In this document: positions 4,927 to 6,568 of the stretch, one piece after another | Layout of the letters: each line of letters starts with the position of its first letter | Position numbering within the stretch: the first letter of the stretch is position 1 | Origin: a virus | Strand: one strand, 5' to 3' | DNA: 21,344 bases | Virus record (IMG/VR): IMGVR_UViG_3300025759_000844 | Location: 1 to 21,344 of that record | Notes under the pieces: generated by a model | What the model was told of the DNA's origin: nothing | The model's database searches: none | Seen by the model: the letters and a program-made list of their open reading frames with translations, nothing else | Translations under genes and position numbers: made by a program

Positions 4927-5130
4927 ATGAGCTACACAAACGAAGAGCGCGAAGAAATCGCAAAGAACATCCGGGAGTATATGAAGCAACCGAAGACCGA
5001 GAAGTTTGAAGAAGTATCCTACTCCGGTATGAAAGTCCTCCACCGAAGAGAGCAAAATATGACATGGTACGACCGGGAATGGCTCGAAACCATCGCCCAA
5101 GACGTGGAGGGGAAAATCATTCACGGATGA
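4927..5130 (+). CDS. Hypothetical small protein (67 aa)
   Basis: The 67-residue product begins MSYTNEEREEIAKNIREYMK and is charged and helical at the N-terminus, with WYDREWLETIAQDVEGK near the end. ATG 4927 is preferred because it follows an AACCAAA-rich stretch; the longer frame from 4837 would be a shadow of the 49-aa gene. It ends in an ATGA overlap with the methyltransferase gene, so the two are probably coupled. Function unknown. Confidence 0.6.
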   Translation: MSYTNEEREEIAKNIREYMKQPKTEKFEEVSYSGMKVLHRREQNMTWYDREWLETIAQDVEGKIIHG

Positions 5131-6053
5131 ATCATGGAAGCCTATTTTCAGGAATCGGAGGCTTTGACCTCGCCGCCGAATGGATGGGGTGGAAAAACCT
5201 CTTCAATTGCGAGTGGGAAGAATTCCCGCGCAAAGTCCTCAAGCATCACTTCCCAAACGCCGAACAGTATGGAGACATCAGAGAATTCAACGCGTCAAAT
5301 TACGCTGGACGAATTGATATCCTTAGCGGGGGATTCCCTTGCCAACCATATTCCGTCGCAGGGAAACGACTTGGAAAAGAAGACGAACGCCATTTGTGGC
5401 CGGAGATGCTTAGAATTATTCGAGAGTGTTCACCGCGTTGGGTCGTGGGAGAGAACGTTCGCGGGCTTGTTAATTGGTCAGGAGGGTTGGTTTTCGAAGA
5501 GGTGTGCGTTGACCTGGAAGCTCGTGGGTACTCCGTTCAACCGTTTATTCTTCCAGCTTGCGCCGTCAACGCTCCCCACAGACGCGACCGAGTTTGGTTT
5601 GTTGCTCACGCCGACGACGAGCGAACAGGTGCAGGATTTGGACAAATTCAAAACGCGGATGGAGAAGTATCCCAACGGAACGACAATGCCGAATCTTGCC
5701 ACTCAGGTCATTGGAATGCTCCCGACACCGACAACGAGAGATTACAAAGGAGCAAGGAGCGAAGAGGCTTTGGAGGCAGTAGGAAGAAACGAGACAAACA
5801 GCCTCCCCGACGCATTCGCACAAAGTGGGAAAACTTCCCAACTCAACCCCCGATTTGTGGCGGAGATGATGGGCTTCCCCGAGAATTGGACGGAATTACC
5901 TTTCCTAAGTGGAGAACCGAATCAATCAAAGCATACGGAAACGCAATAGTGCCTCAAGTGGCTTTGCGTATATTTGAAGCAATCCAAGAATATGAGATCA
6001 GCACGAAAAGCCCTCCTCCATGCGAAGAACTATCTCCTCATCACGGAAAATAG
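5127..6053 (+). CDS. DNA cytosine-C5 methyltransferase
   Basis: The 308-residue product transfers a methyl group from S-adenosylmethionine to C5 of cytosine in DNA. The family motifs appear in order: I (LFSGIGGFDLA, 6-16), IV with the catalytic cysteine (GGFPCQPYS, Cys72), VI (ENV, 109-111), VIII (RRDRVWFV, 152-159) and X (YGNAIVPQVA, 270-279). The target recognition region, about 161-240, is unusually rich in Asp, Asn, Arg and Gly. ATG 5127 overlaps the previous stop. No partner nuclease is nearby, so it is an orphan enzyme, most likely protecting phage DNA. A second long frame lies inside it. Confidence 0.9.
   Translation: MNHGSLFSGIGGFDLAAEWMGWKNLFNCEWEEFPRKVLKHHFPNAEQYGDIREFNASNYAGRIDILSGGFPCQPYSVAGKRLGKEDERHLWPEMLRIIRECSPRWVVGENVRGLVNWSGGLVFEEVCVDLEARGYSVQPFILPACAVNAPHRRDRVWFVAHADDERTGAGFGQIQNADGEVSQRNDNAESCHSGHWNAPDTDNERLQRSKERRGFGGSRKKRDKQPPRRIRTKWENFPTQPPICGGDDGLPRELDGITFPKWRTESIKAYGNAIVPQVALRIFEAIQEYEISTKSPPPCEELSPHHGK
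5269..5949 (+). CDS. Overlapping +1-frame gene inside the methyltransferase gene
   Basis: A second frame is open from ATG 5134 to TAG 5949, wholly inside the methyltransferase gene and shifted by +1. From ATG 5269 it encodes 226 residues with non-random features: a Cys/Trp-rich core (CGRRCLELFE, GSWERTFAGLLIG, ALTWKL), two GLLxTPT or MLPTPT motifs, and LNPRFVAEMMGFPENWTELP near the end. From memory these match phage proteins often annotated as methyltransferase-associated or hypothetical. The start at 5269 is preferred because the 5' part is Ser-rich shadow. Function unknown. Expression is unproven, and conservation forced by the other frame is the main alternative. Confidence 0.5.
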   Translation: METSENSTRQITLDELISLAGDSLANHIPSQGNDLEKKTNAICGRRCLELFESVHRVGSWERTFAGLLIGQEGWFSKRCALTWKLVGTPFNRLFFQLAPSTLPTDATEFGLLLTPTTSEQVQDLDKFKTRMEKYPNGTTMPNLATQVIGMLPTPTTRDYKGARSEEALEAVGRNETNSLPDAFAQSGKTSQLNPRFVAEMMGFPENWTELPFLSGEPNQSKHTETQ

Positions 6054-6213
6054 TCAAGTTATCCGATTACACATCGGAGAAGACCCCGCAACCCTCCTCC
6101 TCACGTTAGCCGTTAATAATGCAGAATTCCTCCACACCCTTGAGGCCGTCATCGTCCAAGCTCATGAAGCTCTCGGAGATCCGGGAGAACCCGAAGAACC
6201 CTCGATTAATTAA
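5992..6213 (+). CDS. Hypothetical protein (73 aa)
   Basis: From ATG 5992 the product has 73 residues, with an N-terminal basic helix, an AEFLHTLEAVIVQAHEAL helix and an acidic Pro/Glu tail. A start at 5974 is also open and adds six residues. It overlaps the methyltransferase 3' end by about 60 bases and the ParB-like gene by 50 bases. I do not recognise the family. Confidence 0.55.
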   Translation: MRSARKALLHAKNYLLITENSQVIRLHIGEDPATLLLTLAVNNAEFLHTLEAVIVQAHEALGDPGEPEEPSIN

Positions 6214-6568
6214 AGACGAGAACTTCCAGAAACTCGTTCGAAGCATTGAGGAATTCCCGGAGATGCTCGAAGCGCGTCCGATCGTAGTCAACCCGGATAA
6301 TATCGTCCTCGGGGGTAATATGCGCTATAAAGCGTGCAAAGCGGCAGGACTTATTGAGGCACCCGTTTACGTCGCTTCGTGGGAAGAAGCCAAAGCGAAC
6401 GCGTTCATCATTAAGGATAACGTCGGTTATGGGGAATGGGATTGGGATATTCTCGCGAATGAATGGGACGCAACCGAACTAAACGATTGGGGTCTTAACG
6501 TATGGGATCCACAAGAAGAGGAACAAGAGAAAGAGGAGAAACCAAAATGCGAACTCTGCGGTAAGTAA
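6164..6568 (+). CDS. ParB/Srx-like domain protein
   Basis: The 134-residue product has a ParB N-terminal-like domain at about residues 1-90: MKLSEIRENPKNPRLI, then RPIVVNPDNIVLGGNMRYKA, where GGNxRYKA takes the place of the GxRRxxA nucleotide-binding box. The second half has WDWDILANEWDATELNDWGL, a motif that phage versions often carry. ParB-like folds bind or hydrolyse nucleotides or nick DNA. Phage copies next to terminase may act in genome processing, which is inferred. The C-terminus ends in a CxxC (CELC), which looks like the start of a zinc ribbon cut short. ATG 6164 fits the domain; the frame before it is shadow. Confidence 0.75.
   Translation: MKLSEIRENPKNPRLIKDENFQKLVRSIEEFPEMLEARPIVVNPDNIVLGGNMRYKACKAAGLIEAPVYVASWEEAKANAFIIKDNVGYGEWDWDILANEWDATELNDWGLNVWDPQEEEQEKEEKPKCELCGK

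Follow-up and report, generated by a model that had tools for sequence, protein, structure and literature searches.

M.EcoHK31I has the target YGGCCR, and M.EaeI is likewise a two-polypeptide m5C methyltransferase; BsuMI YdiO/YdiP is a two-polypeptide C5 methyltransferase as well. For M.EcoHK31I, Lee, Kam and Shaw reportedly described in 1995 an alpha polypeptide of 309 aa and a beta polypeptide of 176 aa, the latter lying inside alpha in another frame. The large subunit of this enzyme carries motifs I–VIII and X and the small subunit motif IX, and its predicted target-recognition domain (TRD) was placed in alpha in 2012, with only motif IX in beta (PMC3404938). M.AquI also consists of two polypeptides, with the split in the variable region and a small subunit that bears both motif IX and motif X (PMC3404938). 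It resembles the pair described here in being a C5 methyltransferase made of two polypeptides and differs from it in having no long nested overlap.

The DNA analyzed here, referred to as the window, is the whole stretch of 21,344 nucleotides of IMG/VR virus record IMGVR_UViG_3300025759_000844. Since a sigma-factor-like gene lies upstream of alpha and a ParB-like gene and terminase subunits lie downstream, we take the window to be a phage genome; the hosts look like Bacteroidota. The ParB-like protein (6119–6568, 149 aa, with a Cys-rich tail at its end) adjoins the terminase genes and matches the N-terminal part of the longer phrog_498, which is labeled DNA methyltransferase. We attribute 5127–6053 and 5269–5949 to the alpha and beta polypeptides of a two-polypeptide cytosine-C5 methyltransferase of the M.EcoHK31I design, a putative heterodimer, with a probability of roughly 0.88. 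Likened by description, the pair shares with M.EcoHK31I an alpha with motifs I–VIII and X and without IX, a second polypeptide with IX and the nested position of beta; it differs in being a phage gene beside terminase, with no restriction enzyme recognized nearby. The features of the pair are the following.

5127–6053, plus strand: alpha, cytosine-C5 DNA methyltransferase (MTase), 308 aa in frame 0; homologues share the start Met
5134–5268, plus strand: 5′ extension of the +1 ORF, its first 45 codons, with stops in many homologues; probably not translated as beta
5139–5162, plus strand: alpha motif I, SLFSGIGG (SAM binding), from the M.HhaI alignment; near-invariant
5269–5949, plus strand: beta, 226 aa, nested in alpha in the +1 frame and probably starting at ATG 5269
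5328–5354, plus strand: alpha motif IV, GGFPCQPYS (catalytic Cys), from the M.HhaI alignment and homologue conservation
5389–5598, plus strand: beta-specific N-terminal domain, CGxKCLE...GSWxxTF...WYSxRCxLTWK, overprinting alpha motifs V–VIII
5451–5459, plus strand: alpha motif VI, ENV, from the M.HhaI alignment and homologue conservation
5574–5591, plus strand: alpha motif VIII, PHRRDR, from the M.HhaI alignment and homologue conservation
5599–5835, plus strand: target-recognition segment of beta, containing the repeats LLLTPTT and LPTPTT, which are in frame in single-chain MTases
5622–5861, plus strand: alpha spacer between motifs VIII and X (residues 166–245), Asp/Asn/Arg/Gly-rich, predicted unstructured from pLDDT; relaxed selection by dNN/dSN
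5836–5913, plus strand: beta motif IX block, SQLNPRFVAEMMGFPENWTELPFLSG, from hhalign to single-chain actinophage MTases
5931–5963, plus strand: alpha motif X, AYGNAIVPQVA, a frame-0 profile match that aligns with the C-terminal part of M.HhaI

A first-pass annotation had reported a +1 ORF at 5134–5949 inside the MTase, and this ORF was indeed present, with 271 aa, LNPRFVAEMMGFPENWTELP, two TPT motifs and the sequence CGRRCLELFE. To guard against bias, homologues were fetched by the MTase protein alone, ignoring the +1 frame (80 fetched, 79 usable, 63 distinct). In all 79 usable homologues the +1 frame ran without a stop from MTase codon 52 to the last ~15–36 codons, leaving none in the shared region, and the +2 frame of the same sequences contained 6–36 stops each. 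Synonymous codon shuffling predicted an open +1 frame in 0.5 of the 63 distinct homologues, compared to 63 observed. Third-position differences were 0.8–1.3 times as frequent as first-position differences over codons 101–272, versus 2–4 times outside the overlap. Fourfold third-base differences, counted at amino-acid-conserved codons in two more diverged pair classes, amounted to 0.65–0.70 at both ends of the gene versus 0.10–0.42 within the core (0.30–0.36 at codons 121–150 and 241–272, 0.10–0.13 at codons 181–240). Synonymous change in the MTase frame was lower in the overlap than elsewhere in the gene. An OLGenie-like count gave a +1 dNN/dNS of 0.67 (0.56–0.78) for codons 91–272 and 1.09 (0.79–1.46) for the flanks; purifying selection acts on this frame in the overlap and not in the flanks. 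The lowest value in this count, 0.29, belonged to the motif IX block. Over codons 171–205, identity was 0.47 for the +1 protein, 0.26 for alpha and 0.27 for the +2 control; codons 171–240 are gappy and all figures from this region, including the fourfold value at codons 181–240, are therefore less sure. In every locus holding both alpha and beta matches, the offset of beta was +1. These data confirm that the overlap is real and more than chance, and the earlier proposal that both frames are constrained was borne out. A non-coding constraint, such as RNA structure or codon bias, might exclude stops from the +1 frame even if no protein were made from it, but amino-acid changes in this frame are constrained, the dNN/dNS falling below 1 in the overlap alone, and the frame has a conserved ATG and is homologous to a segment of a known protein, which makes this explanation scarcely credible.

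The position of the beta start had to be revised, since the first 45 codons from 5134, originally taken as part of the gene, are not conserved. Stops were common in homologues at +1 codons 10, 15, 38, 46 and 51, placing 5134–5268 outside the conserved gene, and within this stretch the +1 identity did not exceed that of the +2 control and dNN/dNS was 0.92. An ATG at MTase codon 44–62 followed by an open +1 frame was found in 63/63 homologues, with 12 expected, and when the set was widened the start codon fell at 44–62 in 123 of 125 ORFs. The conserved ATG (near codon 48) corresponds to 5269 in the window, and the beta gene is probably 5269–5949 with 226 aa rather than 5134–5949. Strong +1 constraint starts near codon 90 (window ~5389). 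No clear Shine-Dalgarno sequence was seen in the 24 bases upstream of the beta starts (ATG 5269 and homologues), a region that is G-poor; Bacteroidota are not known to rely on Shine-Dalgarno sequences for initiation. Beta would be translated from its own internal ATG near 5269 in the +1 frame.

Alpha matched PF00145 with E=1.2e-45 over residues 2–173 only. Among the membership features of this family, motifs I, IV (PCQ), VI (ENV), VIII and X were found in alpha. The view that the MTase contains all catalytic motifs had to be abandoned: motif IX is missing from frame 0, where its pattern occurred in 0/63 homologues, and is encoded in the +1 frame, where a strict pattern detected it in 47/63. 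Alpha alone is therefore not a complete monomeric PF00145 member, alpha and beta together are. In the AF2 model of alpha, pLDDT values exceeded 90 in much of the large domain but stayed mostly <50 at residues 166–245; the model matched the M.HhaI fold with a Z of 19 and 195–209 residues aligned in the chain range 12–327, the middle being unmodelled. Selection on alpha was relaxed over the gappy codons 171–240 (dNN/dSN 1.21), and the Asp/Asn/Arg/Gly-rich segment is odd in composition and shaped by the other frame, as had been suspected. As modeled, beta would fill exactly this gap in alpha.

The C-terminal block of beta, SQLNPRFVAEMMGFPENWTELP, corresponds to motif IX of cytosine-C5 methyltransferases and is preceded by the target-recognition segment with the TPT repeats. 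In hhalign this block matched single-chain actinophage MTases with E=1e-10 and a probability of 97%, and a profile of the TPT-IX region matched single-chain and split actinophage MTases, at best with 4e-7. Based on this comparison the +1 block LNPRFVAEMMGFPENW stands at the position of motif IX, which in M.HhaI we take to be LTPRECARVMGYPDSY. Frame-by-frame profiles found motif IX in the +1 frame together with motif X in frame 0 in 86/87, 80/80, 77/80 and 79/80 loci of four overlapping sets, among them 80 loci from bacterial genomes, chiefly Bacteroidota. The +1 product also matched PHROG 1008, labeled 'DNA methyltransferase', over residues 34–219 (E=2.5e-21). It had been described as a protein of unknown function; the profiles and hhalign identify it instead as the target-recognition and motif IX half of the same enzyme. 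Since alpha shows a dNN/dSN of 1.21 and the TPT segment of single-chain forms continues into beta, the TRD is probably located in beta, unlike the published view of M.EcoHK31I, in which it lies in alpha.

The N-terminal domain of beta was constrained as well, with a +1 dNN/dNS of 0.55 (0.43–0.71) over codons 91–170; profile comparison did not find it in the single-chain MTase forms. No Pfam or NCBIfam model scored above cut-off for the +1 product, and a PDB search with beta, both as single sequence and as profile, returned nothing credible, so that no solved structure was matched. The AF2 model of beta alone was poor (pLDDT 56, pTM 0.24) and yielded no reliable fold. The missing Pfam and NCBIfam matches and an N-terminal domain of unrecognized fold would suit an independent protein with another function, e.g., an anti-restriction protein or a nuclease, that overlaps the MTase by chance. 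The relatives examined, however, contained no free-standing beta, which always occurred at an MTase, and the C-terminal half of beta is homologous to the TRD and motif IX of single-chain MTases, exactly the part that alpha lacks; we regard an independent beta as very improbable.

Among the actinophage relatives, RitaG gp71 carries motif IV, motif VIII, the TPT repeats, PRLTAAFPEWMMGWPAGWV and then motif X in one frame, and PF00145 covers its residues 1–347 (model 1–317/324). Single-chain relatives have motif IX in frame 0 (15 loci). In Dorothy gp71/72 a RitaG-like sequence is divided directly behind motif VIII, its second half, gp72, lying in +1, and MeeZee (gp78/77) and Vash are split in the same manner with motif IX in +1. 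The actinophage MTases, RitaG gp71 as well as the tandem splits of Dorothy and MeeZee, have TPT repeats and a motif IX block as in beta; they differ from the window pair in that motifs X and IX share a frame, the overlap is short and the beta-specific N-terminal domain is absent. The layout of the Dorothy and MeeZee pairs, with the C-terminal half in +1 just after motif VIII, and the existence of single-chain forms such as RitaG are compatible with programmed frameshifting from alpha, by which the N-terminal half of alpha would be fused to the TRD/IX segment of beta. Such a shift after motif VIII would leave unexplained why beta is constrained upstream of the TPT repeats, over motifs V–VIII (dNN/dNS 0.55). 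The ATG that opens the +1 frame in all 63 homologues also speaks against it, and the shifted product would be without motif X, which lies in frame 0. We consider frameshifting unlikely and favor the M.EcoHK31I-type pair, in which beta would be initiated separately.

Several single loci deserve separate mention. The mycobacteriophages Dorothy and RitaG resemble each other closely, yet the MTase is split in the former and one chain in the latter (L177 1501–2590 versus L174 1492–2580), possibly through a frameshift or a programmed shift. In the IMG/VR loci L308 (1766–2737), L323 and L326 (both 1835–2635), a beta-like C-terminal segment lies in the frame of the N-terminal half of alpha; this apparent single-chain fusion may be natural or may stem from an assembly indel. 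The alpha genes of the Bacteroides loci L393, L399, L400, L407, L409, L412 and L424 contain TGA codons in frame. Most of these fall on the same three conserved Trp residues, namely W18/19, W58/59 and the one preceding motif X, and the alpha gene of L424 also has one in-frame TAA. The nested beta was open in those TGA-bearing loci that were checked, and no suppressor tRNA was found within about 10 kb of five of them. Either alpha is decaying there with beta kept or TGA is read as Trp.

Alpha would thus provide the SAM-binding and catalytic large domain with motifs I–VIII and X, and beta the small domain with the target-recognition segment, its TPT repeats and motif IX; together they would form a single enzyme that methylates a specific site of the phage DNA. 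This methylation would most likely serve escape from host restriction. The chances seem about even that the whole TRD resides in beta, that the alpha stretch is only a spacer and that the pair was born by mutual overprinting. A frame shift would then have displaced the segment with the TRD and motif IX from its frame, the new beta gene would have grown upstream over motifs V–VIII, and frame 0 would have stayed open across the TRD to motif X.

The nested +1 layout was also found in E. coli prophage relatives and in K1ind2 gp32/gp33 and Paenibacillus phage Shelly g55/g56, for which two ORFs are annotated. The GenBank record of K1ind2 lists a 'C-specific methylase' and a nested 'Mte8-like protein', that of Shelly a 'g55 internal gene'; their betas are only distantly similar to the window beta, and the records give no function beyond the methyltransferase label. 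The annotation of phage HB10c2 also points to a two-polypeptide MTase of the BsuMI YdiO/YdiP type. By tblastn, window-like beta was present in phage records from Paenibacillus, Lacticaseibacillus, Bacteroides and other hosts (71 records). K1ind2-like beta was present in 224 records, which cover Escherichia, Klebsiella, Salmonella, Rhodobacter, Xanthomonas and further hosts and include the phages N15 and BcepC6B. A scan of IMG/VR with the beta alignment matched at least 600 stretches, with 583 confirmed among the matches listed. A second feature was named over the beta match in about one-quarter to one-third of the listed tblastn phage records and the rest named one; the plasmid collection yielded no more than 13 records, almost all of them named 'DNA cytosine methyltransferase'. 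The overlap is widespread, as the first-pass annotation had supposed, although it cannot be called wholly overlooked: the M.EcoHK31I design is known, the nested ORF is annotated in a number of phage records and its product is represented in PHROG 1008. No report of the nested phage gene was found in the literature searched, where 'Mte8' is named once in a phage genomics paper without a function. A paper on Edwardsiella phages discusses overlapping ORFs, the nested MTase gene not being among them (PMC3025963).

In summary, this kind of gene pair is already known from a few bacterial enzymes and is widespread and under-annotated in phages and Bacteroidota; added here are its breadth in phages, the probable placing of the TRD in beta and the series of single-chain, split and nested forms. 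A large and mostly unannotated group of phage proteins, that of PHROG 1008, is thereby given a function, and a standard annotation error is corrected, as gene callers retain the frame-0 ORF alone and label it a complete methyltransferase. Recoding such an annotated phage MTase ORF for cloning would destroy beta and probably activity too. The pair is a natural experiment in dual coding, the origin of which can be traced through the single-chain, split and nested relatives, and target specificity here would evolve under a second frame. If the overprinting reading is true, phages would widely conserve an obligate nested pair in which sequence specificity evolves for the most part in only one of the two overlapping frames.
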